From: Candidatus Lumbricidiphila eiseniae
Lineage (GTDB): Bacteria > Actinomycetota > Actinomycetes > Actinomycetales > Microbacteriaceae
DNA length: 64,000 bases
Assembly (NCBI GenBank): GCA_002529645.1
Contig: NAEP01000049.1
Coordinates: forward strand, 1 to 64,000
Reading direction: 5' to 3'
The first letter of the stretch is position 1. The number at the start of each line of letters is the position of its first letter. The notes under the pieces are model-generated. The model worked only from the letters and a program-made list of their open reading frames with translations, did no database searches and was not told the origin of the DNA. Position numbers and translations under genes: made by a program. This document shows positions 27,731-62,672 of this stretch, piece after piece.

Positions 27731-27940
27731 CTATCGCCCCGGCACTGACAGTGGCGCGACCATGCGTCCGGGGAATCGGAACCGCGCCGTACTATCGCCC
27801 CGGCACTGACAGTGGCGCGCTCGCAGCCTAGAGCCTCGCCACCGGTGCATCGCTATCTCCCCAGCACTGACAGTGGTGCGGTCGCGCCCGCCCTGTTGAC
27901 CCGGATTCCCGGCTATCGCCCCAGCACTGGCAGCAGTACG
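27731..27940. repeat. 61-bp-period CRISPR-like mini-array, four units
   Basis: Copies start at 27731, 27792, 27853 and 27913 (spacings 61, 61, 60). The first 28 bases of each are alike (core CGGCACTGACAGTGGCGCG with the palindrome CACTGACAGTG); units 1 and 2 are identical over all 28, while the following 32-33 bases are unrelated between units. The fourth copy starts exactly at the stop codon of the next membrane-protein gene and is the most changed (GGCAGCAGTAC). No cas gene is nearby. Confidence 0.85.
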
Positions 27941-28218
27941 AGCGCCGCCGTCACCGCGATAACGACAGCACCGCAAATACTCGCACTCACTCGCCCAATG
28001 TACCCACGTGGCTCGTGGAGCAACATTTGAGAAAAGAGGGAGACAATGGTCGCACCGGCAAGCACAAGCGACAGCGCCGCGAACGAGGCATCCGTGTCGT
28101 GCTGACGCCACCAACCCAGATACCGACCGAACACGATAACACCGGAGCCGATAAGCGTGAGCACCCACACCACACCGATGCCCCAGGCCGCGCGACGAGC
28201 ACTGCGGGTAACCTGCAT
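27913..28218 (-). CDS. Small membrane protein of unknown function (three helices)
   Basis: A 101-residue protein with three hydrophobic segments ([60 protein letters not shown]). AAGGAG lies at a good distance before the ATG at 28218. I recognise no named family. It is divergent from glnR. Its last eight codons form the terminal, degenerate repeat of the 61-bp array downstream. Confidence 0.7.
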
Positions 28219-28299
28219 GACCTGCTCCTTACTTTTCGACGCCCTCGCTTGGTCGAACGTCCCGTAACATTGACCGCACTTTACTATGGAGGATGCTAC

Positions 28300-28983
28300 G
28301 TGGCACAGCTGCTCATCCTGACCCCGGACCCGGAAGATGAGGCACTACCCGCGCTCGGACTTCTGGGCCACCGGGTGACGGCTATTCCTGCCTCCCCGGA
28401 GCAACTCGTTCGTGCGCCCGACTCCGACCTTATGCTGCTTGACGCGCGCAGCAATCTCGCGGGCTCAAAGGCGCTCTGCCAAATTCTGCACACCGCCAGG
28501 CTCGGCATTCCGCTGATAGTCGTCACGACCGAGGGGGGACTGGCCGCCGTGACACCAGACTGGGGTGTCGACGATGTCGTGGTAAACACCGCGGGACCGG
28601 CCGAGGTGGATGCCCGAGTACGACTCGCGATCGGTCGGTTCGAAACGGTGAAACCCACAGCACACATTCTCGCCGCCGGTGTTGTCATTGATGAGGCAAG
28701 TTACTCCGCGCGCGTGCACGGAAGGGCGCTCGATCTCACGTACAAGGAGTTCGAGTTGCTGCGCTTCCTGGCGAGCCATCCGACCCGAGTTTTCACCCGG
28801 GAGCAATTACTCAGCGAAGTGTGGGGTTACGACTACTTCGGTGGCACGCGGACGGTGGATGTGCATGTCCGCCGACTTCGCGCGAAACTCGGCGATTTTG
28901 AGGGCGTCATTGGAACCGTGCGAAACGTCGGGTATCGGTTTAATATCAGCGACGACGAAGAACTGTCGGTCATCGCCCGTTAA
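28300..28983 (+). CDS. glnR: GlnR-type OmpR-family nitrogen regulator
   Basis: A 227-residue response-regulator-like protein with an atypical receiver domain (about 1-115, [11 protein letters not shown] and [20 protein letters not shown]) and an OmpR/PhoB winged helix (about 130-220, [35 protein letters not shown]). The receiver and linker match actinobacterial GlnR, which controls glutamine synthetase, ammonium transport and nitrite assimilation without a cognate kinase. The GTG at 28300 has GGAGG seven bases upstream. Confidence 0.88.
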
Positions 28984-29087
28984 CCTTCGTGCGCGATACC
29001 CGACCCCGGCACATGGAATGATGACCCTGATGGCAAAACAAGATGCTGCAGTCCGTGGCCCAACCCGGCGAATGGGATGATGAAGAA

Positions 29088-31280
29088 ATGAACGCTGAGA
29101 GTCCTCTGAGGGCGATTCATGTTGGCAGTGACCACCTGTCCAGTGACCTCGACGACGATTTCGATCCGTTCGACTTCGACGGGGATGTCGAATTGCCCGC
29201 CGATCGCTACCTTGATCGGGAACTGAGCTGGCTCGCGTTCAACCAGCGTGTTCTCGAACTCGCCGAAGATTCGAGCCTTCCGGTGCTGGAACGCTGCAAC
29301 TTTCTCGCGATCTTCGCGGCAAACCTCGACGAGTTTTTTATGGTCCGCGTCGCGGGCCTGAAACGGCGAATTGTCACCGGGCTTGCGGTTCCCACCAACG
29401 TCGGCACTGCGCCACAGATCGCACTGGACGCCATCCTCGACAGGGCACAGGAGCTACAGGAGCGGCACGCGCGGGCATATCACACGCTCGCGACACCGGC
29501 CCTGGAGGCATCCGGTATTTACACTGTGACGTGGACTGCGCTCAGCGAGAGCGAACGCGGTCGCCTGAAGGAGTACTTCTCCAACCAGATATTCCCGGTG
29601 CTCACGCCACTGGCCGTTGATCCGGCGCATCCGTTTCCCTACATTTCTGGTCTGTCGCTCAATCTCTCGGTCAGGGTGCGCAACAGCCGTTCTGGCCGAC
29701 AAGAGTTCGCCCGTGTCAAGATGCCGCCGATGCTGCCACGATTTGTCCCCGTTGTCTCCGACACACCGACCGCGGTGCTGCGCTTTGTCACCCTGGAAGA
29801 CCTCATCGCAAATCACCTCGACCACCTCTTTCCCGGGATGGACATTGTTGATCATCACGCGTTCCGAGTAACCCGCAATGAAGACGTTGTGATTGAGGAG
29901 GATGAGACCGAGAACCTCATCATGGCGCTCGAGAAAGAACTGCTCCGGCGACGCTTCGGTCCGCCCATTCGGCTGGAAATCACCGAAGATATGGACGAGG
30001 TAACCCTCGGCCTGCTCGTGCGAGAACTCGGTGTGACATCCAAAGAGGTATACCGTTTGCCGGCTCCCCTCGACCTCGGCGGCCTCTTTGACCTCAGCCG
30101 AGTGAATCGCCCCGACCTCCGCTTTCCAACGCACGTGCCAACCACAGCGAGTGCGTTACAACCGACCAAGACCACCCGCAGTTCCAACATCTTCGAGGCG
30201 ATATCTCGGCACGATATCCTCCTGCACCACCCCTATGAATCGTTCGCGACGAGCGTGCAATCCTTCCTGGAACAGGCCGCCGCCGACCCCGGTGTGCTCG
30301 CTATCAAACAAACGCTCTACCGCACCTCGGGCGACAGCCCCATTGTCACCGCACTCATTGACGCAGCACAGGCGGGCAAGCAGGTGCTCGCGCTTGTCGA
30401 AATCAAGGCACGCTTTGACGAACAGGCAAACATCAGCTGGGCCAAGAAGCTCGAGAAAGCGGGCGTGCACGTCGTGTACGGACTCGTCGGGTTGAAAACC
30501 CACTGCAAACTGGCTCTGGTCATTCGCCAAGAAAAGGGTGTGCTACGCCACTACAGTCACATTGGCACCGGCAACTACAATCCCAAGACAAGCCGCGTGT
30601 ACGAGGATCTGGGCCTGCTCACCGCCGATGATCAGGTCGGCAAAGACCTCACCCGACTCTTCAATGAACTGTCGGGGTACGCAATCGAGAAGAAATTCAA
30701 ACGGCTCCTCGTCGCGCCGCTACACCTGCGCAAAGGGTTGCTCAAACTCATCGCGGCCGAGGCCCGCAACGCCGAACAGGGCCTGCCCTCGGGCATCCGT
30801 ATCAAACTCAATTCGCTCGTTGACGAGGCCGTCATTGATGCCCTGTATCGGGCATCAATGGCGGGGGTTCCGGTGGATGTCTGGGTGCGCGGGATTTGCA
30901 GTCTACGCCCGGGTATCCCGGGGCTCAGCGAGAATATTCGGGTCCGCTCCATTCTTGGCCGGTATCTCGAGCACTCGCGAATTTTCTTGTTCCTCGGCGG
31001 TGGCACCCCACAGGTCTACATCGGATCAGCGGACATGATGCATCGCAACCTCGATCGCCGAGTGGAGGCGCTCGTGCGTCTCACGCATCCCGATCACCTG
31101 GCCGATATCGACGACCTGTTTTCACGCGGGATGTCCGACACCACAAGTTCGTGGTGGTTGAACGCCTCGGGTGAATGGACTCGCCACCACCTTGATGACG
31201 CAGACCACCCGCTCGAAGACCTACAGAATAGTCTTATGGCTGAAATTTCCAGGCGTCCCCGCAGAGGAAAACGGCGGTGA
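29088..31280 (+). CDS. ppk: Polyphosphate kinase 1
   Basis: A protein of about 730 residues that reversibly polymerises ATP gamma-phosphate into polyphosphate. Signatures include the N-terminal [34 protein letters not shown], and the histidine motifs [11 protein letters not shown] and [13 protein letters not shown] around the autophosphorylated His in the C-terminal phospholipase-D-like domains. An acidic N-terminal tail precedes the fold. Two starts are possible: ATG 29088 (MNAESPLRA) or ATG 29043. The stop overlaps mutT1 as GTGA, the same order as Rv2984-Rv2985 in M. tuberculosis. Confidence 0.93.
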
Positions 31281-32212
31281 GCACAGCAATCTACGCGGCC
31301 GGTGCCGTGTGTTGGCGCCGCATTGACGGCCGCATTCACGTCCTCGTCATCCACCGCACTGCTTACGGCGATGTCACTATTCCCAAGGGAAAAGTTGACC
31401 CGGGCGAAACGCTCCCGCAGACTGCCGTCCGTGAAATCCTGGAAGAAACCGGGCTCGATGTGGCGCTCGGGGTGCCGCTCGGGATCTCCCGCTATAACCT
31501 GCCCAATGGCCGCGAGAAAATCGTCCACTACTGGGCGGCAGAGGTGACCGAGCCGGCCCTGCAGCGCTCGCAGTTCAAGCCGAACGCGGAGGTCGCTGCA
31601 CTCGAGTGGGTGACCATCAAGCGTGCGCGCAGCTACCTCAGTTATCCACCGGATGTCGAGATCCTTGATGCCTTTGCCCGACTCGTTGACCAGGCGGTGA
31701 CCTCGACTTTTGCACTCATTTTGCTGCGACACGCAAAGGCAATTGGGCGCGGTGCTTGGCAGGGCACGGACGCTGGGCGGCCGCTCACCGATCGCGGTGT
31801 TCTGCAGGCAGCGGCACTGGTGCCGACGGTACGGGCCTGGCGACCCGCCCGCATCGTCACAAGTTCGGCCGTCCGCTGCGTCACGACGGTCGCGCCGCTT
31901 GCAGCAGCAACCGGGATTGAACCCAAACGTGACGAGGGCATTAGTCAGGATGCCTGGGAGGGTGCAACAGCCGAGGTGCGACGGGTTGTTGGCAAGCGGA
32001 TTCGCGCGACAAAATCGGCGGTGCTCTGCAGCCACGGGCCCGTCTTACCGGATATTTTGCGCGAGATTGCACTCGCGACAAGCACACCGATTGGGTCCTA
32101 TGTCTCAGATGCGGCGGCCCTGGATACAGGTGCGTTCAGCGTCATTCACGTGTCGCGAAACCATCCGGGGTCGGGCATGATCGCGATTGAAACGTACGGG
32201 TCACAGGCCTGA
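31277..32212 (+). CDS. mutT1: Two-domain NUDIX hydrolase/histidine phosphatase (MutT1 type)
   Basis: A 311-residue protein. The N-terminal NUDIX domain carries the full box from [20 protein letters not shown] to TG; the C-terminal domain starts with the histidine-phosphatase RHG-type motif LLRHAKA. MutT1 of mycobacteria hydrolyses 8-oxo-dGTP and diadenosine polyphosphates, sanitising the nucleotide pool. It is translationally coupled to ppk through GTGA. Its stop codon lies within the first repeat of a 61-bp array. Confidence 0.9.
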
Positions 32213-32388
32213 CCACGAGCAGACCGAGGTTGCCTGACCCCAAAATGAAAACATCACCCGACTCTCGGCCTGACCGCGAGCGCGCTGAAGTTACGTCATC
32301 TGCGGCGTCTTCGTATACCGAGCGCGTGGCCTGACCGCGAGCGCGCTGAAGTTACTCCCCGTGCAGTGATCTTCAAGGCTGCCGCGGA
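32206..32388. repeat. 61-bp-period CRISPR-like mini-array, three units
   Basis: Copies start at 32206, 32267 and 32328, exactly 61 bases apart. Copies 2 and 3 are identical over 28 bases (core GACCGCGAGCGCGCTGAAG); copy 1 differs at several places and holds the mutT1 stop codon (32210-32212). The three 33-base stretches that follow are unrelated. A fourth, strongly degenerate copy may exist near 32418, after a 19-base tandem duplication (GATCTTCAAGGCTGCCGCG). Confidence 0.85.
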
Positions 32389-32407
32389 TCTTCAAGGCTG
32401 CCGCGTT
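32366..32407. repeat. 19-bp tandem duplication
   Basis: GATCTTCAAGGCTGCCGCG occurs twice in a row. It interrupts the spacing between the mutT1-end array and a later diverged copy. It looks like simple slippage. Confidence 0.75.
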
Positions 32408-32576
32408 CGTGTTCGAGGAGTGATCCCGAGGTTGCTCGCCGCGCAGTGACCTTCACAAAGAGTTACGTGGGGTAGCTCGGCAGCACGGCGCTGTCGTCGC
32501 CCAGGCCCGATCCACGAACGCAATCGCTTGCGTCCATCTGCCCTGCAGTGTTCACGCTCACCGCACTGGATGGCGC

Positions 32577-32663
32577 ACTCCTCCCACACACGGTGAGCAG
32601 ATGCTATGCCCAGGATTTCACCGACCTCATTCCGCGACTCCTCCCACACACGGTGAGCAGATG
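32577..32663. repeat. 60-bp-spaced CRISPR-like repeat pair
   Basis: Twenty-seven identical bases (core CCCACACACGGTGAGCAG) at 32577 and 32637 enclose 33 unrelated bases. The repeat differs from that of the array 300 bp upstream in the same intergenic region. Confidence 0.75.
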
Positions 32664-32913
32664 ACTGGGGCATCCCCATGTTGGACGAAGCGGGGCTAGT
32701 GCCAGCCACCGCGCACCAACCATGGTCATACGGCGATCGGAATCTACTGGGTTCGGCACCCCGTGGAGAGGGAGATGACCCACGGTTTTTACACGGTTGT
32801 CCGGTTCGGGTCCGATAACGCACCCGTGACACACAGAGGGTGCCCGGCCTGAGTCATCTCGACACGAAAGAGGCACCGGTGAGCAACGGTTCACAGCACA
32901 TGAGGAGGTTCTG

Positions 32914-35697
32914 TTGAAGACGACGCTTCGCGAGAAACTGCGTTCTCTCTGGCGTCTCGGAGCACCCGAGGCGCGTCATGTCGGCTCGATGCGATATCGA
33001 GATCGCGCTAGGGTGACCGTCGCGATGATCGGTGTCGCCTCGGTTGCGGCAACGGGGGGCCTTGCCATGACCAATATTTCTGCCCAGGCTGCCGATCTTG
33101 CGTATGGCTTTGAGTCGGTACATGGTCGCCTTGGCACTGTCTGGGTGAACGGCATTCCGGTCGCCTGTATTGACCCGTTCGGTGGGCATTCGAGTCGGGT
33201 GCCCAGCAATCTCACCCCGTCGTTTAGCAACGCGGGCATGAGCGATCAGAACGCTGCCGGGCTCAACATGGTGATGTCAACTTTTGCCCGGACACCCGAC
33301 AACGTGACCGGTGCCGCCGTGGTGCTCAGTGCATGGACCCTCAAGGATGCCATTATTTCCCACGCCCGAAACACCGGGTACCGAGGCAATAACGCACGTG
33401 CGGCTGCCGAGTGGTTCTCCGCACGCGCGGGTAGATTCGCGCGCGCCGTGATGGCGAAGTATGACGAGATCATGGCTGCCGTTGCAGACGTGGTTGTGGC
33501 CTCACCCGATGGTAATGGCGGACGATTGACCTTCAACATTGACCGCACAAACAACTACCTTGGCACGCTGACGGTCCACAACCTCAGTCCAGTAGATGCG
33601 GTTGGGACGCTCTCTCTCACCAATGGAATCTTCACCGCTACCGGTTCTGCGACCATCTCGGGCGTCACAAACGGAACGGTCTTGAACGTGAGGGCCATTC
33701 CACCAAACGATGCTGTCGATTACAAGATCAGCGTCGTCGGTGATTTTACCGGTACCGGCAACGGGTGGAGGCCGCAGATCGCGGTGTTCGACAACCCCGC
33801 GCAGACAATGGCCGGTCCTGGGCCGGAAACGGTTGCGACCTTCCGCCTGTCCGGCGAAGATTCAGCCTCACGGAGCACGATCTTCCGTCCGATCCTGCAA
33901 ACCACAGTCCCATCGGCGTATCTCAAGCGTGGCGACACCTTCAAGGACACCCTGCGCTTCAGCACCGTGGCTGATACCAGCGGGCTCAACAATCCGTGGC
34001 CCCAACGGATGAACGGGTATCTTGAGGTCACCGCGGTGTGCACTGTCTACGGTAACTACAGTCGACGACCCCTCGAGTCTGATGATGCTCCGCCCGGGTC
34101 ACCCGTGGCCGGTCGTTTCACCGTGACCACGACCGCGAGTGCCGGACCGAGTATTGACTATGTCGGTGAGACCAACGAGAAGATGCCAGAATCTGGCTTC
34201 TACACTGCCCAGTGTGCGATTGTGGCGGACACCCAGCCGATGTCCACGCGGCGATTCATCCCGACCGACTATTCCTACCGGGATCGCATCGGACAAGACG
34301 CAGAGACATCGGTCGTGCCGATGGAACTTGAGGTCAGTACCCGACTGAGTATCACCGAGATTGGCATCGGCGAGAGCCTCACAGACACCGTGACCACCAA
34401 GCTAATCAACGGCCCCTGGCTCCGCGACGCACACGGCAACCGCTACTCGATCCCGTTCAGGTACACCGGTTACCTCACCCCCGAGGAGGACGGGAAACCG
34501 AGACAAGCGGCAAGCCCGCCACCAACCGCGCAGGCCGTGCTGACCGGCACCTTTACGATCAACAGCCCAGACCCGGTCTCCTATCAACTCACCGCACCGA
34601 TGCGCGGAGGGTGGCTCTCGGTGGTTGTGTGTATCACACCCGCGGATCTGCCAGCCGAGTTGGTGGGTATCGTGGTGCCCGGCTGTGACAACTACGGTGT
34701 GCCCGCCGAGACGGTGCACATCATTGCCCCGCACATCACAACACAGGCCACCCGGCTCGCCACAACCCACGACCCGCTCAACGACACCGCGACCATCAAC
34801 GGCCGCATCCCGACTAATACCGTACTCGAGTTTGAGCTGTTCAAGAGAGTGGAGGCCGGAGACGCCAAACTCGATGAAAACGGCAGGCCAAGAAATCAGC
34901 TGTGGACCCAGAGTGAGATCGATGCGCTCGGCGACCAGGCATACTGCGCCATCGACAACCGCGTTACCAAGACCGAACGAGTCGCCGTCAAGCCCGGAAT
35001 AAATGACAGGGCCACGTACGACTCACCCCGGGTGTTCGTCACGAGGAACAGTGTCTACTGGTGGGTGGAAAGCCTCATACACCTCAACCCGGACACCGGT
35101 GAGGAAAGGGCGATCCACCGTGGTACGTGCGGGCTGCCGAACGAAACGACCACGGTCAACGATCCGAAGGTCACGACGAGGGCCGTTCCCGACATCGAAC
35201 TGGGCAACCTTGCTCATGACACCGCGATCGTCGTCGGCCCCATTCCGGGGGAATCCTCAGGAATCCGCACCCAGCTCACCTTCGAGGCGTTCGAAAAGAA
35301 GAGCGAACAACCCGTCTGCACCCCGGACAACCGAGTTGCCAATCTCACCGACCCGATCATCGTGACGAAGGAGGGAAAGTACGCCTCCGCTGATGTTGCC
35401 TTCACACGACCCGGCGGCTACTGGTGGGTCGAGACACTGGCCAGCGTTCACATTGAGACGGGCGAAACCACAATCATCCACACGGGCACATGCGGCCTGC
35501 TCGCCGAAACCACCAGGGTCTCAACCACACCGACCGCACCACCGGCACCGCAACACCTTGCCACAGCGGGAATCCCCGTGATCGTGTCCCTCGCGAGTGC
35601 CATGGGACTGCTGGGCCTGGGCGGGGCACTCCTGGTGACTCCTCGCATGTTGCGCAGCAACCGTACCCGCCGCGGCCGAGGTCGCCTCCGGTCGTGA
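32914..35697 (+). CDS. Large secreted cell-surface protein with LAxTG-like anchor
   Basis: A 927-residue exported protein. A long basic N-terminus leads into a signal segment (VAMIGVASVAATGGLAMTN, cleavage near residue 60). The first domain has CIDPF and a later alanine-rich helix region, recalling Cys-containing N-terminal domains of actinobacterial adhesins. Several beta-sandwich repeats follow, the last two carrying YWWVE motifs and paired cysteines (residues about 620-880). The end is LATAG, a hydrophobic helix and RSNRTRRGRGRLRS, resembling a class E sortase signal. The start is TTG 32914 with GGAGG six bases upstream. Role probably adhesive. Confidence 0.78.
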   Translation: MKTTLREKLRSLWRLGAPEARHVGSMRYRDRARVTVAMIGVASVAATGGLAMTNISAQAADLAYGFESVHGRLGTVWVNGIPVACIDPFGGHSSRVPSNLTPSFSNAGMSDQNAAGLNMVMSTFARTPDNVTGAAVVLSAWTLKDAIISHARNTGYRGNNARAAAEWFSARAGRFARAVMAKYDEIMAAVADVVVASPDGNGGRLTFNIDRTNNYLGTLTVHNLSPVDAVGTLSLTNGIFTATGSATISGVTNGTVLNVRAIPPNDAVDYKISVVGDFTGTGNGWRPQIAVFDNPAQTMAGPGPETVATFRLSGEDSASRSTIFRPILQTTVPSAYLKRGDTFKDTLRFSTVADTSGLNNPWPQRMNGYLEVTAVCTVYGNYSRRPLESDDAPPGSPVAGRFTVTTTASAGPSIDYVGETNEKMPESGFYTAQCAIVADTQPMSTRRFIPTDYSYRDRIGQDAETSVVPMELEVSTRLSITEIGIGESLTDTVTTKLINGPWLRDAHGNRYSIPFRYTGYLTPEEDGKPRQAASPPPTAQAVLTGTFTINSPDPVSYQLTAPMRGGWLSVVVCITPADLPAELVGIVVPGCDNYGVPAETVHIIAPHITTQATRLATTHDPLNDTATINGRIPTNTVLEFELFKRVEAGDAKLDENGRPRNQLWTQSEIDALGDQAYCAIDNRVTKTERVAVKPGINDRATYDSPRVFVTRNSVYWWVESLIHLNPDTGEERAIHRGTCGLPNETTTVNDPKVTTRAVPDIELGNLAHDTAIVVGPIPGESSGIRTQLTFEAFEKKSEQPVCTPDNRVANLTDPIIVTKEGKYASADVAFTRPGGYWWVETLASVHIETGETTIIHTGTCGLLAETTRVSTTPTAPPAPQHLATAGIPVIVSLASAMGLLGLGGALLVTPRMLRSNRTRRGRGRLRS

Positions 35698-35723
35698 GGG
35701 GATGGTCAAGATCGGCGTGGCCA

Positions 35724-36380
35724 TTACACAACCGGCAGTGGATGCCCCGCCGCCACCCGATCTGCATCGGGCACGCGCGCGACATCCATCGGCACCTCAC
35801 CGGACAACCACCGATGCAGCACCCCGCCCGGGACCTCCTCCGCGCACAGCGCAAAAGCGAAGTGATCACACCAGGAACCAGCAATATGGATGTACCGCCG
35901 ACGCAATCCTTCGTATCGAAATCCCAGTTTCTCGACGATCCGCAGCGAGGGTTTATTCTCCGGCCGGATACAAATCTCAACCCGATGCAACCCCGCCGTC
36001 CCAAAGCAGTAGTCCGTCGCCAAGGCCACCGCCACCGGTGTAATCCCACGCCCCGCATACTCTTGCGCAATCCAATAGCCGATGTTCGCCGACGACATCG
36101 ATCCGTGCACGATCGAACTCACGTTCAGCTGGCCCACCAGCAGTCCGCGATATTCCACGATAAACGGCACACCGTACCCTTCACGCGCGTACCGCAGCAG
36201 ATTTCGGATACTCACGCGAGCATTGATCGAAAAGGTTCCCTGCGGATGACTGGCTTCCCATTTGCGCAACCACCCGCGATTATCAAGCAACACTCGCTCA
36301 AGCTGTCGTGAGTCACGTAACCGAATAGGTCGAAGGGTTACTTCACCCTCTCGGATAGCGGATATAACCGGGGGTAGCAC
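35724..36380 (-). CDS. rimJ: RimJ/RimL-type GNAT N-acetyltransferase
   Basis: A protein of about 218 residues with a GNAT fold. VTLRPIRLRDSRQLERVL begins the domain, IGYWIAQEYAGRGITPVAVA carries the acetyl-CoA pocket, and RVEICIRPENKPSLRIVEKL is the typical RimJ/L motif. It acetylates an N-terminal or small-molecule amine; the substrate is not evident. It follows galU on the same strand with almost no gap. The start is uncertain (GTG 36380, or TTG codons further up that overlap galU). Confidence 0.8.
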   Translation of the reverse strand: MLPPVISAIREGEVTLRPIRLRDSRQLERVLLDNRGWLRKWEASHPQGTFSINARVSIRNLLRYAREGYGVPFIVEYRGLLVGQLNVSSIVHGSMSSANIGYWIAQEYAGRGITPVAVALATDYCFGTAGLHRVEICIRPENKPSLRIVEKLGFRYEGLRRRYIHIAGSWCDHFAFALCAEEVPGGVLHRWLSGEVPMDVARVPDADRVAAGHPLPVV

Positions 36381-36382
36381 GG

Positions 36383-37282: not shown

Positions 37283-37361
37283 GGCTCTAGCGTAACGGGG
37301 CCTTCTTCGAAGCTGAGTGGGCACGTCAGTCAGCCACCAATGGTCGCCTAAGATGCTGCAC

Positions 37362-37934: not shown

Positions 37935-37940
37935 CGTCAC
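37923..37940 (+). terminator. Hairpin at the end of the formyl-THF cyclo-ligase gene
   Basis: GTGACG (37923-37928) and CGTCAC (37935-37940) form a perfect 6-bp stem around a TTTTAG loop that includes the stop codon. No clear T-run follows, so terminator function is uncertain. Confidence 0.35.
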
Positions 37941-37952
37941 CACTGTTTATCG

Positions 37953-39078: not shown

Positions 39079-39168
39079 GACGTGTCCCTGCGCGCGGCAC
39101 CGGCAAGGGGCGGTGCGCGCAGTGGCGTTTTGGTCCGTGGACGTGTCCCTGCGCGCGGCACCGGCAAG
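39079..39168. repeat. 61-bp-spaced CRISPR-like repeat pair after mscL
   Basis: Two identical 29-base copies (core CCTGCGCGCGGCACCGGC) start at 39079 and 39140 with 32 unrelated bases between, that is 29 + 32 = 61. It lies in the 273-bp gap between mscL and the convergent aminotransferase gene, in which I see no gene. Confidence 0.8.
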
Positions 39169-42754: not shown

Positions 42755-42763
42755 GGCACTCAA

Positions 42764-42912
42764 CCCGGTCTTCGCGCAGGCCGGTGCGTCCGCAATCACT
42801 GCATCTTGTTCGCTCGCTTCGAGACCGGTCTCCGCGCGGGCCGGTGCGTCCCCTCGCGCCGCACCGCGCGAGCTACACCGTCCGACCGGTCTCCGCGCGG
42901 GCTGGTGCGTCC
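42764..42912. repeat. 61-bp-period CRISPR-like mini-array, three units
   Basis: Copies of 28 bases (core CTCCGCGCGGGCCGGTGCG) start at 42764, 42824 and 42885 (spacings 60 and 61). Copies 2 and 3 differ at one base; the copy nearest the dehydrogenase stop is the most changed (CTTCGCGCAGGCC). Intervening 32-33-base stretches are unrelated. The array fills the gap between two convergent genes. Confidence 0.85.
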
Positions 42913-42925
42913 CGGGGTGCAGCGA

Positions 42926-52901: not shown

Positions 52902-52965
52902 CGGTGCACTCCATTTCGCTCAAATGCGACGGACTATCGGTCACGTCATTGCTGTGTTGAATCGC

Positions 52966-52992
52966 TACTGTACAAGATAATTCCGAACAGTA
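52966..52992. promoter_or_regulatory. TACTGT-N15-ACAGTA inverted repeat upstream of potD
   Basis: Perfect six-base arms at 52966-52971 and 52987-52992, 65-91 bases upstream of the potD-like start. Position and similarity to the element before the PucR gene suggest a shared operator. The flanking DNA is AT-richer than its surroundings, as expected for a promoter. Confidence 0.4.
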
Positions 52993-53413
52993 TGACCGTT
53001 GTGATGAAACTCACCTAAGAGGTCCATGAAAATGGTGGATGCTCGACCAATGGGAGCCTGCGGGTGGAAGGGTCGTGAAACCCCGGATGCTGTGAAAGAA
53101 TCGTGAAACCCCGGAAACTGCGATGGGAATCACGGTGATTTCAATGATCGCGAGGCTTAAAACTACTGAGAGGTTCATGAAGACCTACCAGTGCGGCGGC
53201 CGCTCCCGCAAAATTCGATCGTCCTCCCCGGCACGCCGGGCTTCAGGCTGTTCGTCACGACCGAACTGGCTCGACCCATCAGCTCCGGGCGCGGTCGTCA
53301 GCGACGCCCTGCGACCGCCCGAGGTCTTCACAATGCGTTGACGCGGACGCGCGGCCGATGAATCAACATCCGGAGAGTCGCCCTCCGGGGAACCATCGTC
53401 CGGCACCACCGAA
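52993..53413. other. Intergenic stretch between potD and the helicase-like gene
   Basis: About 420 bp. A direct repeat TCGTGAAACCCCGGA occurs at 53073 and 53101. From about 53185 to 53413 the minus strand has an open frame that continues the low-complexity tail of the helicase-like protein in another frame (DDGSPEGDSP). No other gene is recognised. Confidence 0.5.
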
Positions 53414-56400: not shown

Positions 56401-57562
56401 TCATGTTGACGATGGTTTGTGTGCCACCGGTGCCGGGCAGAGTTTTCACGACAAAGGATGCCCCGGCCTCCGCCTGCGCAATAACCTGTTCCTGTTGTTG
56501 GTCGGCGTCGAGCAGGAGGGTGTCCGTTGATGGCGGACGGATATCCTGCGGCGCAAGCTCGAGCGGCGCGAGAGTGCTTGCCTCAATGGTGGCGCGCGCG
56601 GCGGCACTACCCGCTAGGGCATCGATGACCGGGTGAGCGAGGAACGAGACATCCGCCGCCATCGCCGGGCCGACCTCGGCAAAACTTGACACAACCAACC
56701 GCGGTCGCACCCGGAACCACGGCAGGTGCTGGGTCAGCCCGCGCAAATGGTCGATAACCGGCTGCGGTTTGAACACCCCGTTGCTGATCGCGAGCGATAC
56801 AAACAGGTCGTCATCCAGCACGATCCCGAACTGTTCGCGCAGTTCACGTGCGAGCGCCGGATTGAGAAAAGGCTGGCCCTTGAGCTTGAGTTCGAAGTCA
56901 CGACCGTACCGACGGATCGCGAGTGGGCGCAGCAGCACCGGTGCGTGAAATTCATCACCGTCCGTGCGCCACGACGCCAGTCCGATGGCCAGGTGCACCG
57001 ACTCGATGCCCCGAACAGACCACAGTTCGATACCGCGCTGGGTGATTTCGGCTGCCGCGATACGGGCGTTTCGAAGTGCAAGCTCGTCACGGATAAGGCT
57101 TGAGAGCAGGGTTGACTTGCCCGTAATAAACTGCGGCAAACCACCGGGATGCGTCGTGGACAACTCGATTCTCGTACGCGGGGTGTCTTCGAACCGGGTC
57201 AGCGGCGAGCGACCCCCGATCACGGCGAGTTTCTCCTGCCACCGTCGCCGTGCCTGCTCGCCAACGTTGCCGGGCACCGCATCGGGGTCACCAAGACTGA
57301 GAGTAGTGGGGTTCGTGTGGGGCGAGGGTGGCGGGAGGGAAAGCTCGTCGCGCCCAGCAAGACCATCCTCACGGGGGATGTCCCTCCTCTCGAACGCGGT
57401 TGTTCCGGGTAGCTCGTGGTCGTGACCGGGTGAGGTCGAATCGCTCGCCTCGCGAGGCGGAGAACTCTCCGATGCGGGGTCGCCGAGTTTCCCGTTGACG
57501 ACACTCTCCACGATCTCGTCCGCGGGTACCCGATCACTGTTTCGACTCAACCGCCACACCAC
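53414..57562 (-). CDS. Large helicase-like AAA protein with degenerate nucleotide-binding motifs
   Basis: A 1,382-residue protein related to SF1/DUF4011-type AAA helicases of actinobacteria. After a disordered N-terminus (1-130), a domain at about 130-330 precedes a P-loop-like TLPGTGGTQTIVNMI near 375, where the Walker lysine is glycine. The Walker-B-like FDVVILVDAGATT near 935 lacks the normal DEAx. C-terminal helicase motifs (LTRSYRAGGEELSEMVNRFF, AMTRARRSLEIVAAF) and a REase-like tail domain (VVVETDEV) follow. It may be an ATPase-dead nucleic-acid binding protein. The start is GTG 57562. Its promoter is not evident. Confidence 0.65.
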   Translation of the reverse strand: MVWRLSRNSDRVPADEIVESVVNGKLGDPASESSPPREASDSTSPGHDHELPGTTAFERRDIPREDGLAGRDELSLPPPSPHTNPTTLSLGDPDAVPGNVGEQARRRWQEKLAVIGGRSPLTRFEDTPRTRIELSTTHPGGLPQFITGKSTLLSSLIRDELALRNARIAAAEITQRGIELWSVRGIESVHLAIGLASWRTDGDEFHAPVLLRPLAIRRYGRDFELKLKGQPFLNPALARELREQFGIVLDDDLFVSLAISNGVFKPQPVIDHLRGLTQHLPWFRVRPRLVVSSFAEVGPAMAADVSFLAHPVIDALAGSAAARATIEASTLAPLELAPQDIRPPSTDTLLLDADQQQEQVIAQAEAGASFVVKTLPGTGGTQTIVNMIGSLVARDKRVLVVGSRWSSLDGIVHRLGHVGLNGMAVRTRTLKRDLIHTIGRHEKTERPHTADIDDALVRLRKVLIDYRAALTRTDPELHVSPLDALEALSRLTGSHTPPATLARLGPHALLTLAQNRDAVAADMVKAAELGEFRHTPGESPWYGATFDSSESAQRAHATAKQLREQDLPKLLESGRLLIAQTRLRPFESIAELGVFLRLLLEVRESLDAFHPSVFDRPLGELIEAVLPKRETPRLSSSSRRRLRRHAMEFVRPGARVDDLAAALRSIQQQRTLWQRYSEAGAVPTVPTGIDEVARLYQRVVSELSELDEPFHLSGTPRQLAARPVRELVATVTGLTSETDALNNLHERTSLAARLRELGLDPLLADLAQRHVPAELVAGELELCWWQSALELMLSEQRALLGADTAMLDRLENDFRLVDGAHAAAAGPALAWRMAENWRVAILDHAHEAEALKRVLRGDQVRSGQLQEVAPHLMRVLAPVWLSSPYEVSHIDDSIQFDVVILVDAGATTIAENLGAIRRAQQVIALGDPVTQTPTQFEIAILDGGDDAAEVEASTDLQYGIDADLQYNADALHADSALARLAELLPTLSLTRSYRAGGEELSEMVNRFFYSGRIESLPWAGSFLGRTSLVLHSVAGTGLPDAETGLVESTDVEVAKVVELVIEHAVHRPRESLMVVTTNPTHAARVHQAVLAAFARRNDLTDFILKDQAEPFTVLTIEQSVAQSRDRVIFSVGYGRTPHGRLLSSFGALSEPRGARLLAIAMTRARRSLEIVAAFAPDEIDADRQSHGVLALAGVLRKTEELMAGGGPQVPPPVASVMVRDLASRLLKVGIHVSLGYHGRLALAASYNGKAVVVETDEVLTKLSLRESLRLRPDLLRRLGWHYLRVHTFELFSNPAGVVARVATVLGAPLGVTASTVPSLSDDKPLAQDASADETLVATASLTTLDGSPDGDFLGTVGSSPVVDPSATGTLSSSTGFSSAGED

Positions 57563-57598
57563 ATCGACACCCTATGTGTCGTTCAATGATTTTTGGGG

Positions 57599-57873
57599 GA
57601 TCCTGGCCGCGTGCCTGCCGCATCAGATGCGCCAATCCCACCGTACAGGAGCGCGGGCACCCGCTTAACATGCTTCACAGTCTTGACACACGTCAATCCC
57701 ACCCTGCAAGAGTCCGGGCACCCGCTTAACACGCTTCACAGTCTTGACACACGTCAATCCCACCCTGCAAGAGCCCGGGCAGTCGAGAGCGTGCGGTTGA
57801 ACGGGTGCCGTCGTCAGTTCCACCGTGCAAGAGTCCGGCGGAATCCCGGCGGTGTGCCCACCGCGTCAGATGT
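57599..57873. repeat. 61-bp-period CRISPR-like mini-array, four units, reaching the ald stop codon
   Basis: Repeat copies (core CCCACCCTGCAAGAGTCCGG, 29 bases) start at 57631, 57692, 57753 and 57813 (spacings 61, 61, 60). The stretches after copies 1 and 2 are nearly identical (CGCTTAACATGCTTCACAG, CGCTTAACACGCTTCACAG); that after copy 3 is unique; that after copy 4 contains the end of ald and resembles the stretch before copy 1. So whole repeat-spacer units have been duplicated. It fills the 303-bp gap after the helicase-like gene start. Confidence 0.8.
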
Positions 57874-58966
57874 GCGACGAGCAGGGCAGTCCATGGGCAG
57901 TCGCAACTCCCTCGTTTGTGAGGCGGCCGCCGATGGCATTGAGCCCCTTGGTGAGTGACTCATCGGAGGCCAGCGCCGCAGTCACGCCGAGGTCCGCAAT
58001 GTTTACGGTGTAGCGCAGTGTTGCGTTGGTGAGTGCCGGAGTGGATGTTGCGGGCACCGCTCCGGGCATGTTTGCGACACAGTAATAGATTGAACTGTGC
58101 ACCCGGAAGGTAGGCTCCGCGTGTGTTGTGGCGCGCGAACCCTCGAAGCATCCGCCCTGATCGATCGCGATGTCGACCAGAACGCTTCCCGGCTTCATCG
58201 TGGACACCATATCGTCGGTTACGACTTTGGGTGCGGCTGCACCGGGAACAAGCACCGCACCGATGACGAGATCCGCGTCTTTTAGCTGGCGGGCAACCTC
58301 GTATGGCGACGAAGCAAGCGTGTGAATTCGCTGCCCGTAGCGGACATCGATCTCGCGCAGCTTCGGAAGCGAGACATCCAGCACGGTCACGTCGGCGCCC
58401 AGACCCATGGCCGTGACCGCCGCCTGCTCTCCCGCAACTCCACCGCCGATCACAACAACTTTCGCCGGCGGGGTACCGGGCACTCCCGCGAGCAAGACAC
58501 CCCGCCCACCGCGCGTCTTGAGCAGTTCGGTGGCTCCGACCTGTGGGGCCAGCCTTCCCGCCACCTCGCTCATGGGAGTGAGCAGCGGCAGCGACCGGTC
58601 GGCGTGTTGCACGGTCTCGTACGCGATCGCGGTGACACCCGAGTCCAGGATGGCGCGGGTGAGCGGCAGATCCGCGGCCAGGTGGAGGTAGGTAAAGAGG
58701 GTCAGATCATGTCGGAGGTATCTGTATTCGCTCGCAGTGGGTTCCTTTACCTTGAGCACAAGCTCGGCACTCCAGGCATCCTCGGCCGTGGCAGTGATGG
58801 TGGCGCCTGCGGCACGGTAGTCGTCATCGCTGTAGCCCGCCCCGATACCGGCACCGGACTGGATGGCAACATCGTGGTTGTGGAGCAGGAGGGTGTGCGC
58901 GCCCGCCGGCGTGAGCGCAACCCGATACTCGTTGTTTTTGACCTCTGTCGGCACACCAATGTACAT
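57866..58966 (-). CDS. ald: Alanine dehydrogenase
   Basis: A 366-residue NAD-dependent enzyme interconverting L-alanine and pyruvate + NH3. MYIGVPTEVKNNEYRVALTP is the diagnostic start and VVVIGGGVAGEQAAVTAMGL the NAD motif. It is divergent from an Lrp-type gene, matching the ald-aldR arrangement in mycobacteria where AldR controls ald in response to alanine. The stop codon lies inside the last unit of the adjacent 61-bp array. Confidence 0.94.
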   Translation of the reverse strand: MYIGVPTEVKNNEYRVALTPAGAHTLLLHNHDVAIQSGAGIGAGYSDDDYRAAGATITATAEDAWSAELVLKVKEPTASEYRYLRHDLTLFTYLHLAADLPLTRAILDSGVTAIAYETVQHADRSLPLLTPMSEVAGRLAPQVGATELLKTRGGRGVLLAGVPGTPPAKVVVIGGGVAGEQAAVTAMGLGADVTVLDVSLPKLREIDVRYGQRIHTLASSPYEVARQLKDADLVIGAVLVPGAAAPKVVTDDMVSTMKPGSVLVDIAIDQGGCFEGSRATTHAEPTFRVHSSIYYCVANMPGAVPATSTPALTNATLRYTVNIADLGVTAALASDESLTKGLNAIGGRLTNEGVATAHGLPCSSHI

Positions 58967-59097
58967 GGCACCTCTCCGAATATTTCGTTATTCTGTTGAG
59001 CAATGTTTACCTGATATGCGTAAAAAGAGAAGCTGTACCGCATAATATTTTGTGTAGTGCGTGTTTGACGAGTGTTTATGCTGAACGAGGAGGGTTC
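58967..59097. promoter_or_regulatory. Divergent ald/aldR control region
   Basis: An AT-rich 131-bp stretch (ATATTTCGTTATTC, CATAATATTTTGTG) between divergent starts. The two AATATTT blocks near its ends point toward the two genes and could belong to AldR sites or promoters. GAGGAGGG at 59088-59095 is the ribosome binding site of aldR. Confidence 0.5.
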
Positions 59098-59703
59098 GTG
59101 TCGGAGCCGTCGAAGATCTTCCAGCCCGCCATCCTGTCTGCCCCAGTGCCCGCCGCGACCACCCAGTCCGCCGCGATCACCCAGGCCGGTGCGAGCAGTG
59201 CCGCTAAGGCGCAGCCTGTTCCAGTGCCTGCAGCAATCATGCTGGACGATGTGGATCGCAGGATTATCTCTCTTCTGCACGATAACGCGCGGATCCCGAA
59301 CACTGATCTGGCCCGGGCCGTGGGCATCTCCCCTTCCACCTGCCTGACACGAGTGCGGTCGCTACGTACCCGGGGAGTCATTACCCGGTACACCGCGGAA
59401 ATCAATCCGCGCGCGCTCGGCTTTACCCTGCAGGCACTCATCAGCGTGAGGATCCGACCGGGTGCCCGGCACCTGATCGAGAAGATCTCCGCCGAGATTC
59501 GTGCCCAGCCGGAGGTGGCGCAGCTCTTCTTCCTCGGTGGTAGCGATGACTTCCTCATCCATGTGCGTGTGTACGACAGTGACCATGCGCGCGAGTTTGT
59601 GCTTAAGCACCTGTCTGTCAATCCCGCTGTCGCCTCAACCGAAACGAATCTCGTGTTCGAACACCACACGGCACTGTCAGTTGGCTTGCGGACAGCACTG
59701 TAG
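59098..59703 (+). CDS. aldR: Lrp/AsnC-family regulator of alanine dehydrogenase (AldR type)
   Basis: A 201-residue Lrp protein. An Ala/Pro/Gln-rich N-terminal extension of about 50 residues precedes the winged helix (LDDVDRRIISLLHDNARIPN, AVGISPSTCLTRVRSLRTR) and the RAM domain (ALISVRIRPGARHLIEKISA). GTG 59098 is chosen for its strong ribosome binding site. It probably activates or represses ald depending on alanine. Confidence 0.87.
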   Translation: MSEPSKIFQPAILSAPVPAATTQSAAITQAGASSAAKAQPVPVPAAIMLDDVDRRIISLLHDNARIPNTDLARAVGISPSTCLTRVRSLRTRGVITRYTAEINPRALGFTLQALISVRIRPGARHLIEKISAEIRAQPEVAQLFFLGGSDDFLIHVRVYDSDHAREFVLKHLSVNPAVASTETNLVFEHHTALSVGLRTAL

Positions 59704-59854
59704 CGGGAGTGCGGGGAACGCGACAGTCTCGTGTTCAAGGTGGAAGTGCAACACGTGGTGGTGTTCGTGCCGTCCGGGACCTGCACCACCGCCAGTTGTG
59801 GCAGTACCTACCCCGTACACACCGACAACACCGCAAAACGTTCGGGGCCTGCGG

Positions 59855-60808
59855 GTGCGTATAAGCAGTTTCATGGCCATCACGGTGTCTTTTGTTCTAA
59901 TCGCAGCGGCAAGTCTTACAGGTGCAGGTGTCGCAAACGCTGACACAGAGGCGACCAATGATGAGATCACCAGTCAAGAGATTGGTGAGGCACTATTCGC
60001 GGTGAAAAACGCCACCGGCCTTATTGAGGAGGTAGTCACTGCTGGCACCAATAGTAACTCAGCGGCTGTCACCCGAACGTTAACTGGCGATGTGGTATCA
60101 ATACCAAAAAACCCATTCAATGATATAACTATCATCAGCAAAGATCAGACGAAAATCACGATCAGTCTTCCTGGTGTAAATAATATTAGAGATACAAATA
60201 TCCTTGCGGATGGCACCGTTACGTACCCGGCTAATACCGGCACCGCAAATGCTGCGATACCGACTGCTACTGGTGTTCAGCTTCTTACCACGATCGCGAA
60301 CCCAAAAGCGTCACAGCGCTTCGACTATCGGGTTGGACTTCCGACTGGTTATCACTTAGCGCTAACTGTCGCTGGTGGGGCACAAGTAACTGATAGCTAT
60401 GGGCAAGCCGTCGCCACCGTGTCACCTGCGTGGGCGGCAGATTCCATGGGTAAACCTGTATCTACGCATTACGAGGTTATAGACTCTACTCTCACCCAGG
60501 TCATAAACCACACATCAGAAAAATTCAGCTATCCAATTGTTGCTGACCCGAACTGGGTGCAACAATCGATAGCTGTTACAGCTGGGATCGCGGCCGGCAC
60601 AGCTGCTGTTGTAGCGTTCAAATTACCACCATCGGTGGGATGGGCGATAGGTGGATGCGTGCAAGGCGCCCTGAGTGCCATGTTTGACGGGCAAGATTTC
60701 TGGGGAACATTGAATAGATGTGTATCCGGAGTATTTACCGGTCTACTCGGCAAAAACTTTTCGAACTGGCTCACCCGTTTCCTTGGAAGTCGAGGAATTT
60801 CGACTTAG
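59855..60808 (+). CDS. Secreted protein of unknown function with hydrophobic C-terminus
   Basis: A protein of about 317 residues. Start GTG 59855 (MRISSFMAITVSFVLIAAAS) or ATG 59873 gives a signal peptide cut near NA-DTEA. The middle resembles actinobacterial secreted proteins with the pattern PVVADP (here YPIVADPNWVQQ). The last 80 residues are a Gly/Ala-rich hydrophobic stretch with two cysteines (GGCVQG, NRCVSG), recalling peptide toxins or bacteriocin-like domains. The gene is visibly AT-richer than its neighbours, suggesting transfer. A 2-TM protein follows. Confidence 0.6.
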   Translation: MRISSFMAITVSFVLIAAASLTGAGVANADTEATNDEITSQEIGEALFAVKNATGLIEEVVTAGTNSNSAAVTRTLTGDVVSIPKNPFNDITIISKDQTKITISLPGVNNIRDTNILADGTVTYPANTGTANAAIPTATGVQLLTTIANPKASQRFDYRVGLPTGYHLALTVAGGAQVTDSYGQAVATVSPAWAADSMGKPVSTHYEVIDSTLTQVINHTSEKFSYPIVADPNWVQQSIAVTAGIAAGTAAVVAFKLPPSVGWAIGGCVQGALSAMFDGQDFWGTLNRCVSGVFTGLLGKNFSNWLTRFLGSRGIST

Positions 60809-60826
60809 TATCGAAGGAGTATGAAC

Positions 60827-61036
60827 ATGCAACTGTTGCGAAAGAAAAGCGAAGCCTTAAAGCCTCGTGAGATCATCGAAACTATTATATCAATGGCAGT
60901 TGTGTTTGGGATGTTCTCGGTTGGCTCGTCACTGCACTCTTGGCCGATTGGAGTTCTCTTCGGTGTACTAGCAGGCGGATTGTACGGCGTGGTTAGTACG
61001 GTGTGGTTACGGTGGTGGTCAAAGCATCAAAATTAG
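60827..61036 (+). CDS. Small two-helix membrane protein next to the secreted protein
   Basis: A 69-residue protein (QLLRKKSEALKPREIIETII start) with two membrane segments (MAVVFGMFSVGSSLHSWPIG, VLFGVLAGGLYGVVSTVWL). ATG 60827 has AAGGAG seven bases upstream; ATG 60821 is too close to it. It starts 18 bases after the secreted-protein gene, so the two are probably one unit; an immunity or export partner is conceivable but not shown. Confidence 0.6.
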   Translation: MQLLRKKSEALKPREIIETIISMAVVFGMFSVGSSLHSWPIGVLFGVLAGGLYGVVSTVWLRWWSKHQN

Positions 61037-61082
61037 TGCTAAAGCAACTCCTTCTAGTGTCCTACGTCTGAAGCTCGTTTCA

Positions 61083-61307
61083 TTAGTCGGGTGATGGATT
61101 CGAGGACTTACCCGGCGGTTTTGGTCCAGATGAAGGGTGTAGGCTCTCGTTCCAGCCTTTGGCCCAGAAGCGGACGTCAGCCTTGAGGACTTGGATGTTC
61201 TTGTGTGCTAAGTGTTGTAAAAGCTGCTGGGCGAGGCGGGCAAGCCAGCGCTCAACCTGGTTCATCCAGGGGAACTGCTGCAGGGGTAGGTGGCAGGTTG
61301 TAGTCAC
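61083..61307 (-). pseudogene. IS630-family transposase C-terminal remnant
   Basis: The visible piece (WMNQVERWLARLAQQLLQHL, ADVRFWAKGWNES, then PSSGPKPPGK) matches the C-terminal part of IS630 transposases (NQVERW...AHK...W..NE). The catalytic N-terminal part is absent, so it is a dead fragment. Confidence 0.7.
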
Positions 61308-62170
61308 GCTGCCAGTGCGGCTGGTGTGTTTATGATGGCCTTGAATTCGATCGGAGTCAAGCGGTTGAGGGTGGTTGGTGGTGGTGGTGGGTGCGTTCGG
61401 TCCGGGTGGTGATCGTGATGTGTAGTTGTTCGCGGGTTGCCCAGCAGTGGTGGTCGAGGATGTTCTTTTGCAGCAGCCTGAAGAAGCTCTCCATGGCCGT
61501 GTTGTCGCCAGCCGCGGCCACTGGGCTCATGGTTCCGAGGAGTCGGTGACCGGTCAGGGCGCGCAGGAGCGTCCGGCTTCAAAGTTGGGTTTTCTTCTAT
61601 CGCTGTGAACGATACAGCGGGCGAGGTCGCTGCGCATCGTGATGGTGTTGTTCAGCGCGTTGACGGGTCAGGCTGGACCTCATCCTGGAGTCGATCAAGT
61701 ATCCCGACGATCTTGTTGGTGAACACGTCCTTGATCGCGCAGAGCTAGAGCTTTGCCTCCGCTGTTCGGTGTTCGGTGATGTCGGTGAGCCAGAGCTGGT
61801 TTGGGCCCTCGGCGGTGAGCTCGTGCCCGGTTCCGCTCGTCCTTGTCGGTCACCGCGCACAGATCATCCTGGACCGGTGAGCCCGGGCTTCTTGCCATTG
61901 CGGCCCCTGTTTCTTCCCGAACCCGGACCACCAGCTGTTGCTCGACGCGATCCGCCACATCGTGCCATCCGCCACACCGTGCCATCCGCCACATCGTGCC
62001 ATCCGCCACACCGTGCGATCCGACAACGCTTCGCCGACGTCGCGGGCCTTGTCGGCGAGCAACCCGGTGCCCGAACCCCGGATCATCCTTATGCGCATCG
62101 AACAGCGCGTTCGCGCGATACGCCCCCACCACCTCACTCCTGGTGATGGGCTCCGCCAACCACCGGTAAG
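61304..62170 (-). pseudogene. IS3-family transposase OrfB remnant with frameshifts
   Basis: Fragments of an IS3 OrfB lie in changing frames: AEPITRSEVVGAYRANALFD (near 62150), FGKKQGPQWQ, VVGSPDIT-EHRTAE, and LNRLTPIEFKAIINTPAALA at the C-terminus. At least three frame changes and an in-frame stop make it inactive. A 17-bp repeat expansion (61951-62018) sits where the WRICS motif should be. Confidence 0.7.
61951..62018. repeat. 17-bp tandem repeat, four units, in IS3 remnant
   Basis: Four units of CCGCCACATCGTGCCAT/CCGCCACACCGTGCCAT. They expand one short motif of the dead OrfB. Full-length identity between units marks it as ordinary slippage. Confidence 0.8.
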
Positions 62171-62214
62171 AGAGCTAGCAGGAGAGCTTGCGCACCCGAC
62201 ACATCACCATCACA

Positions 62215-62560
62215 GGGAACCCCGCGGCGGCGAGCTCCGTCACGAGCGGGTACCACCTTTTCCCGGCAGGTTCGCCTGCAACAGATACCCTGCAGCCCAC
62301 CGAAACACCTCGTTCCCCTGCTCCAGCAACCGGACCCGCTCGCGCGCCTCCCGCAACTCCACAGACTCAGTACGAGTCTGACCGGGCCTGGCACCCTCAT
62401 CGATGCCTGCGCAACACATCCACTTCTGCAGCATCATCGGATGAACACCGAAGTCTCTCGCGATCTGCTCAATCCTCACCCCGAATTCACGATCGCGCAT
62501 GACACGCACGAGGTCGTCACAGAACCCGCCCGGGTAGAGCTTAGACCCAGCCGCGGACGA
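62215..62560 (-). pseudogene. IS3-family transposase OrfA remnant
   Basis: A helix-turn-helix OrfA (DDLVRVMRDREFGVRIEQIA, RDFGVHPMMLQKWMCCAGID, then LREARERVRLLEQGNEVFR) is largely intact, but its 5' end is broken up by the 61-bp array and OrfB downstream is dead. No clear terminal inverted repeats were found. Confidence 0.7.
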
Positions 62561-62672
62561 CGAAGACCGACCCCCGACAGAACCCCCGCACGGGTAGAGC
62601 TTGGTCAAGGACGAGCTCTTCTGGAGCTCATTCCAGAACGGAACCCCCGCACGGGTAGAGCTTGGACACAGC
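62521..62672. repeat. 61-bp-period CRISPR-like mini-array at the IS3 OrfA 5' end, three units
   Basis: Copies (core CCGCACGGGTAGAGCTTGG, 29 bases) at about 62521, 62579 and 62640; the conserved GGGTAG block lies at 62532, 62592 and 62653 (spacings 60 and 61). Copies 2 and 3 are almost identical; the copy nearest OrfA is degenerate and two bases shorter. Intervening 31-32-base stretches are unrelated. On the minus strand the repeat encodes the KLYP motif at the OrfA start. Confidence 0.8.

Follow-up and report, generated by a model that had tools for sequence, protein, structure and literature searches.

Short-spaced repeats in the 64-kb window

The window analysed here, a stretch of 64,000 nucleotides (C10:1-64000) from the 2.85-Mb, 73-contig genome of Candidatus Lumbricidiphila eiseniae (97.4% complete, 0.3% contamination), contains seven loci at which a locus-specific repeat of ~28 bp occurs in 2-4 copies at a spacing of 60-61 bp, with unlike sequence between the copies. 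The origin of these loci, hereafter called mini-arrays, and their relation to the type I-E system of clustered regularly interspaced short palindromic repeats (CRISPR) in the same genome are the subject of this report. The window was scanned at lags 20-200 for pairs of 24-mers agreeing at 20 or more positions, and 12 clusters were found at lags 60-61, one of which is a low-complexity ACCAAC tract (18995-19028); other lags outside known tandem arrays gave 0-2, the exceptions being multiples such as 121-122 (4 and 2 clusters).

The mini-array at 27731..27940 has four repeats of CTATCGCCCCGGCACTGACAGTGGCGCG (27731, 27792, 27853 and 27913), the two final copies of which are decayed. It is followed by one with three repeats at lag 61 (32206..32355; copies at 32206, which is decayed, 32267 and 32328), one with two repeats at lag 60 (32577..32664), and one with two identical 29-bp repeats at lag 61 (39079..39168). 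Three repeats, at lag 60 and then 61, are located at 42763..42913, four at 57633..57842, and three, the first of them decayed, at 62520..62668. Spacers 1 and 2 of the array at 57633 are near-identical, so this array has also duplicated one whole unit.

A preliminary description of this stretch, made from the sequence alone, had listed eight such loci. Those at 27731, 32206, 32577, 39079, 42764, 57599 and 62521 are confirmed, with the actual start of the sixth at ~57633, whereas the eighth (17161..17250) is a weak repeat pair that aligns only with three gaps and is not counted as confirmed; 1.5% of 1000 random adjacent windows score equally high. The same description considered the repeats to be unrelated, which is correct in so far as they are locus-specific, but a degenerate CCC...GGG core is common to them and to the canonical CRISPR repeat of the genome. 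Its remark that the 64 kb hold no cas gene is in line with the location of the only Cas1 of the genome on another contig, although the window was not searched for every cas gene. Neither a tRNA scan of the window nor an Rfam search at the gathering threshold found anything. A 126-bp tandem repeat, which we take to be a YVTN-like coding repeat, forms two arrays (18113-18980 and 63549-64000), and an ACCAAC hexamer tract follows the first.

Genome-wide number and geometry of mini-arrays

The full sample comprised 81 stretches, the window among them, and totalled 1,638,849 bp or 58% of the genome. It yielded 244 loci at lags 57-64, of which 231 were kept as mini-arrays after exclusion of 10 full tandems and 3 loci of low complexity. 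By proportion, this extrapolates to ~400 in the whole genome. Counts in four wrong-lag bands, each equally wide, were 19, 10, 3 and 3 loci, and almost none were seen in the relatives sampled, so the genome-wide excess of 60-61-bp spacing anticipated in the preliminary description is borne out. The lag of the best pair was 61 at 124 loci, 60 at 65, 62 at 17, 59 at 10, and another value at 15. Two repeats were present in 202 mini-arrays, three in 26, four in 2 and five in 1. A first sample (the window and 40 stretches, 846 kb) presented the same peak, with 77 pairs at lag 61 and 40 at lag 60, compared to a mean of 0.77 pairs at other lags (45-159, excluding near-60 and near-120). The maximum among those other lags, 12 pairs at lag 126, corresponds to a tandem-repeat period also present in the window.

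When 96 arrays of the first sample were aligned at their centres, identity was ~0.9 or more in the core and ~0.27 beyond both edges of a 28-bp box. Taken with the lag distribution, this box profile gives an insert geometry of 28 + 32/33, that is, a repeat-length duplication around a spacer-length insert, which is the type I-E geometry proposed at the outset. A core set of 194 arrays was used for most of the following comparisons, 37 of the 231 having been dropped for a lag outside 59-62 or a repeat length outside 22-34. Short tandem arrays at L020:5522-5631 and L023:4086-4151, whose small periods also yield lags 63 and 60, are not spacer-like.

The canonical type I-E system

A search for cas1 and cas2 located a type I-E system with a full effector set on another contig (C67). 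cas1e and cas2e (C67:46.3-47.6 kb) adjoin a canonical array in which ATCCGCCCCGCACATGCGGGGGTGAACC is present in 67 exact copies and 62 of 64 extracted spacers are 33 bp long, and cas5e, cas7e, cas11e, cas8e, cas3 and cas6e are located beyond the array on the opposite strand. Cas1 was assigned to subtype I-E with 334.9 bits, and a second Cas1 locus was not found in the genome by a Pfam Cas1 family search. The protein keeps E142, H210, D220 and D223, which are invariant across 58 aligned homologues and which we take to be the catalytic residues of Cas1. Of 130 conserved columns it deviates at 35, more than any other of the 59 aligned sequences (other divergent members, 13-30), and we claim no cause for this. 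The genus was searched for cas1e in 60 genomes, with the present one among them; this genome alone passed the cut-off, and one congener gave a weak match under it (57.5 bits vs 215.6).

The canonical array begins with leader, repeat, leader copy and repeat (L004:19563-19720, on C67), 48 bp of the leader end recurring after repeat 1. At L005:13840-13988, the 5′ end of the cas6e open reading frame (ORF) is overlapped by a second short array, whose repeat is canonical-like, and one spacer of this array resembles positions 61924-61954 of the window. A prophage-like region with portal, head, tape-measure and tail genes (L191, C11:20001-40000) is matched by four canonical spacers, three of them at full length and with AA as protospacer adjacent motif (PAM). 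Since this resident region is targeted by the canonical spacers of its own host, interference may be off or blocked. All four near-perfect targets of canonical spacers inspected in the genome, three in L191 and one in L202, have AA, a fifth self match of 26 nt not being among those inspected for the PAM.

Target sites resemble the canonical repeat

The mini-array repeats were compared directly with the canonical 28-mer in the better orientation, a test that covers resemblance to the repeat and not to the leader. The L005 locus was excluded from this test because of its canonical-like repeat, but is still counted among the core arrays (194) and the spacers (226). The mean match was 10.86 of 28 positions at offset 0 (n = 193 arrays). 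Nearby random 28-mers gave 8.80 +/- 0.16 (200 sets, maximum 9.20) and shuffled repeats 9.15 +/- 0.15, and offsets -1 and 7-8 gave 10.41 and 8.7-9.3. The part common to the targets and the canonical repeat is the palindromic core, with C at 7-9 and G at 18-21. Motif discovery by expectation maximization on 87 repeats reached at best 6.97 bits vs 4.5-5.0 in control runs, and because this gain is modest we relied on the direct comparison. On the reading developed below, the duplicated sequences would be native DNA that happens to resemble a CRISPR repeat.

Spacer sources and adjacent motifs

With only the best source per spacer used, 88 of 226 spacers matched at least 24 nt elsewhere in the 58% sample, which would correspond to about two thirds of spacers being self-derived genome-wide if sources are evenly spread. 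In 71 of the 88 the best match spans 30-33 nt, and the median identity is 100%. The matches end at the spacer edges in 87 of the 88, the flanks of source and spacer being at background identity (0.29 and 0.30 over 15 bp). In controls taken 260-390 bp away from a repeat start, 38 of 756 windows had a match, 3 of them bounded; an earlier flank control, in which 50 of 771 windows matched, had mixed in long repeated stretches and was redone with these other windows and the boundary test.

In the window itself, sources within the sample were assigned to three spacers: the first of the 27731 array (32 of 33 positions, on C8; L169:7720-7752), that of the 32577 array (31 of 32, on C9; L015:12693-12724) and, more weakly, the third of the 57633 array (at 57752; L167:3340, 25 nt at 92%). 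A fourth source is located outside the sample, where C20:36809-36844 corresponds to the spacer region 62605-62640 with 2 mismatches in 36 nt, both within the last 3; the TT adjoining the 3′ end of this source is AA on the opposite strand. One window spacer compared with phages gave a 20-nt match (E = 0.09), and one window locus compared with plasmids by blastn gave only short chance-like matches.

The PAM was counted at 78 of the 88 sources, 10 being dropped for more than 3 mismatches or a position at a stretch end. AA directly 5′ or TT directly 3′ of the source was present in 28 of 78 (14 each), compared to 19 one base further out, 9 and 10 at shifts 2 and 3, and a mean of 5.9 at shifts 4-15. 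Pooled over both source ends, AA occurs at 28 of 156, with 6.1 expected. Self matches are far more frequent in mini-arrays (88 of 226) than among canonical spacers (5 of 64), a ~7.5-fold enrichment in odds (p = 6e-7). Eighteen mini-array spacers match their source perfectly at the inner positions and have AA at the place of the PAM, and would be expected to be lethal if used by an active Cascade-Cas3.

Relatives and empty sites

Loci of this kind are scarce in related genomes: two congeners without cas1e had 2 lag-60/61 pairs in 200 kb, and four further congeners had 0 in 80 kb. The 1.49 Mb surrounding the cas genes of 80 named cas1e loci contained 97 such pairs, but these stretches include the genomes' own CRISPR arrays. 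Removal of loci whose repeat is similar to that of the local long array left 38 small loci of array-like form (lags 56-66) in 2.28 Mb (named loci and relatives), 25 of them in the named loci. Many of these 25 resemble variants of the common I-E repeat, and a few off-target units may be among the 38.

Empty sites were compared at the protein level, with 21 of 29 relative loci aligned for PurH, 13 of 29 for dihydroxyacetone kinase (DAK), and 4 loci (in 3 genomes, the only strong matches) for sarcosine oxidase alpha. The cleanest case is sarcosine oxidase alpha (L019:13813-16794, minus strand), in which three copies at lag 60, the first decayed, amount to 120 bp or 40 residues. Its homologues in 3 genomes of other families have an exact gap of 40 residues at the array and keep one equivalent of the repeat (AFVPHREV vs AFLPAER). 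In the 18 congeners searched only distant matches were found, hence there is no congener comparison for this protein. DAK (L021:16086-18116) has 19 extra residues at its array relative to 13 homologous loci in 10 genomes, a less clean case as the insert sits in a variable linker. For PurH (L009:7419-9218, minus strand), all 21 aligned homologues have a gap of at least 30 residues that includes the array, which exceeds the 20 residues of one unit and is likewise less clean. An AMP-binding enzyme with a 16-residue gap vs a single relative was counted as not clean. PurH has a second insert (residues ~285-314) at a GC-rich short tandem repeat (L009:8259-8305), which the aligned relatives do not have and which was not counted as a mini-array.

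Age, location and reading frame

Mismatches between repeats at the inner 24 positions numbered 0 in 68 of the 194 core arrays, 1 in 48, 2 in 34, 3 in 27, 4 in 12 and 5 in 5, so that 126 arrays have at least one. Because repeat divergence increases with the divergence between spacer and source (rho 0.33, p = 0.0017, n = 88), the insertions appear to have built up over a long period. According to crude ORF calls, 104 of the 194 arrays are intergenic, 45 are partial and 45 are inside ORFs, while ~16% of the sample is noncoding. Lag 60 exceeds lag 61 inside ORFs (25 to 17), and the reverse holds between ORFs (23 to 67); with partial loci pooled (33 to 48) the frame effect is only just significant (p = 0.0497). 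Both this effect, which is partly circular, and the intergenic count are inflated, because an insert that breaks the frame ends the ORF.

Proposed off-target integration and its alternatives

We interpret the mini-arrays as off-target spacer integrations made by the genome's own type I-E Cas1-Cas2 complex, with a probability of about 0.92. This reading is based on the insert geometry, the resemblance of targets to the canonical repeat, the self-derived spacers, the enrichment of AA, and relatives that are free of the inserts. The preliminary description had already suspected acquisition machinery of the I-E kind that makes arrays at many sites, which these data support; what goes beyond it is that many spacers are self-derived and that some arrays are in frame inside genes.

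In the proposed mechanism, Cas1-Cas2e, the probable catalyst judging from sequence features, would capture fragments of ~33 bp, often from the own chromosome and with a preference for an AA PAM, and would insert them at chromosomal sites similar to the palindromic core of the CRISPR repeat, with duplication of 28 bp of the target. Each event would leave a repeat-spacer-repeat unit, a gain of 60-61 bp, and further hits at some sites would give 3-5 repeats. Units would persist where harm is small, in intergenic positions, near gene ends, or as 60-bp in-frame inserts in proteins, and the retained units would then decay through point mutation. Self spacers in the canonical array would be expressed as CRISPR RNA (crRNA) and lead to cell death, while the mini-arrays would presumably be silent: uniform processing of such diverse repeats is unlikely, and they would probably yield no effective crRNA. 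Such a survival bias would make self spacers common in mini-arrays and rare in the canonical array. Candidate reasons for the permissiveness of this genome are a relaxed Cas1-Cas2e, its high expression, lost interference, or time.

Several results count against off-target integration. Five cas1e-bearing relatives in the order had only 2 lag-60/61 pairs in 592 kb sampled, and because such relatives are nearly free of these loci, type I-E alone is not sufficient for mini-arrays and some special factor would be at work here. The empty sites were compared across species only. The target motif is degenerate, with the canonical match at offset +2 (10.79) nearly equal to that at offset 0. For 138 of the 226 spacers the 58% sample holds no source, and for two window spacers (32295 and 42793) a search of the entire genome for another copy, allowing up to 3 mismatches, found none. 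AA adjoins only about a third of the sources, and the side on which it occurs does not follow the inferred orientation of the repeats, which is itself weak at each locus and does not settle growth polarity or spacer direction.

Of the alternatives, an undetected integrase or casposase-like element with 28/33 geometry, to which the I-E system would be a bystander, survives best, but we consider it improbable. It is favored by the lack of insertions in the sampled relatives with I-E Cas1, which suggests a requirement beyond I-E. Only the I-E cas1 was found by the Pfam Cas1 family search, however, the AA beside sources is common to the canonical spacers, and the targets resemble the genome's own canonical repeat. 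The integrase of the same geometry that the preliminary description offered as an option is therefore not needed, and is retained here only as this rival. Less probable still is that the mini-arrays are small functional CRISPR loci, or CreA-like regulatory units under selection that regulate host genes. The 29 mini-arrays with at least three repeats and the good share of spacers that match the host genome would fit such a role, but the repeats are decaying in 126 of 194 arrays, and the 18 perfect self spacers with AA are expected to be lethal under an active Cas3 system.

Ordinary tandem repeats, or replication slippage with partly diverged units, could account for the whole-unit duplication at some loci, such as 57633, and for the 10 full tandems among the 244 loci. 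Slippage leaves unexplained the fixed 28-bp box with background identity on both sides, the copying of spacers from other loci, the PAM enrichment, and the scarcity at other lags and in relatives, and for the 87 spacers that have a bounded source at another locus it is refuted already; as had been argued at the outset, slippage alone does not suffice, and we regard it as very improbable. The same very low probability is given to polymerase template switching or microhomology repair that copies ~33 bp and duplicates the target: repair is known to produce insertions templated by other parts of the genome, but it would not yield a near-constant 28-bp duplication, a 32-33-bp insert, PAM enrichment, and a target similar to a CRISPR repeat. 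An array of binding sites was rejected since each locus has its own repeat, and an assembly artefact since the sources elsewhere with PAM enrichment argue otherwise.

Relation to known systems and biological meaning

Off-target Cas1-Cas2 events in the laboratory are rare, and natural examples are few. Nivala, Shipman and Church (2018, Nat Microbiol 3:310) reportedly observed that E. coli Cas1-Cas2 can integrate spacers off target ("neo-CRISPR" integration), at places in the chromosome that are not CRISPR but similar to the native locus, and are said to have noted a few putative natural cases in Yersinia pestis and Sulfolobus islandicus. The mini-arrays are similar in that spacer-size DNA is found at non-CRISPR chromosomal sites resembling the native CRISPR locus, and they differ in their number, 231 in 58% of one natural genome, and in their self-derived spacers, their decay over time, and their in-frame inserts in housekeeping proteins. 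According to the passages found in PMC11788318, the E. coli events followed overexpression of Cas1-Cas2, and the Nivala et al. study is also cited for off-target integration in the passages found in PMC9456107 and PMC11687729.

The mini-arrays share with the canonical array the 28-bp repeat, the 33-bp spacer, AA beside the inspected sources, and the palindromic core. Unlike the canonical array, which has one common repeat in 67 exact copies and 5 of 64 self spacers, each mini-array has its own repeat, mostly in 2 copies. Ectopic acquisition in type II-A systems of Streptococcus thermophilus and S. mutans is comparable in that spacers are inserted away from the usual array end, but those cases, as described in PMC7999890, are within existing arrays, whereas the sites here are outside any array. 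Virus-borne mini-CRISPR arrays, SRUs and the ectopic repeats of CreTA are also one- or two-spacer arrays outside the main locus, but here native chromosomal sequence is duplicated in place. For type II-A Cas1-Cas2, the passages found in PMC6895254 describe low-level in vitro integration at non-CRISPR sites similar to the leader-repeat junction, and off-target insertion is not a subject of those found in PMC10284694. A literature search, which covered few subscription papers, presented among the matches listed no natural genome with large numbers of such insertions. Off-target integration itself is already known, while its genome-wide scale, the self-derived spacers and the in-frame protein inserts look new.

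The CRISPR integrase has probably served in this lineage as a genome-wide source of short templated insertions, which comprise hundreds of ~33-bp copies, many of them chromosomal, with 28-bp duplications and additions of 20 or 40 residues to proteins. Because 60-bp units keep the frame, 20- and 40-residue segments would over evolutionary time have been added to working proteins. If this is true, the integrase would be an endogenous DNA-duplication mutagen, able to seed new CRISPR arrays and protein segments. A single genome with hundreds of events of varied age, in which the insert, the target and often the source are visible, would open to test the choice of targets away from the leader, the source of prespacers and their PAM bias before filtering by immunity, the birth of new CRISPR loci, and the mutational load imposed by an immune integrase. 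The contrast in self spacers between mini-arrays and the canonical array may be a natural read-out of autoimmunity purging, and the in-frame inserts found in metabolic enzymes point to a way in which protein sequence could be added by an immune system.

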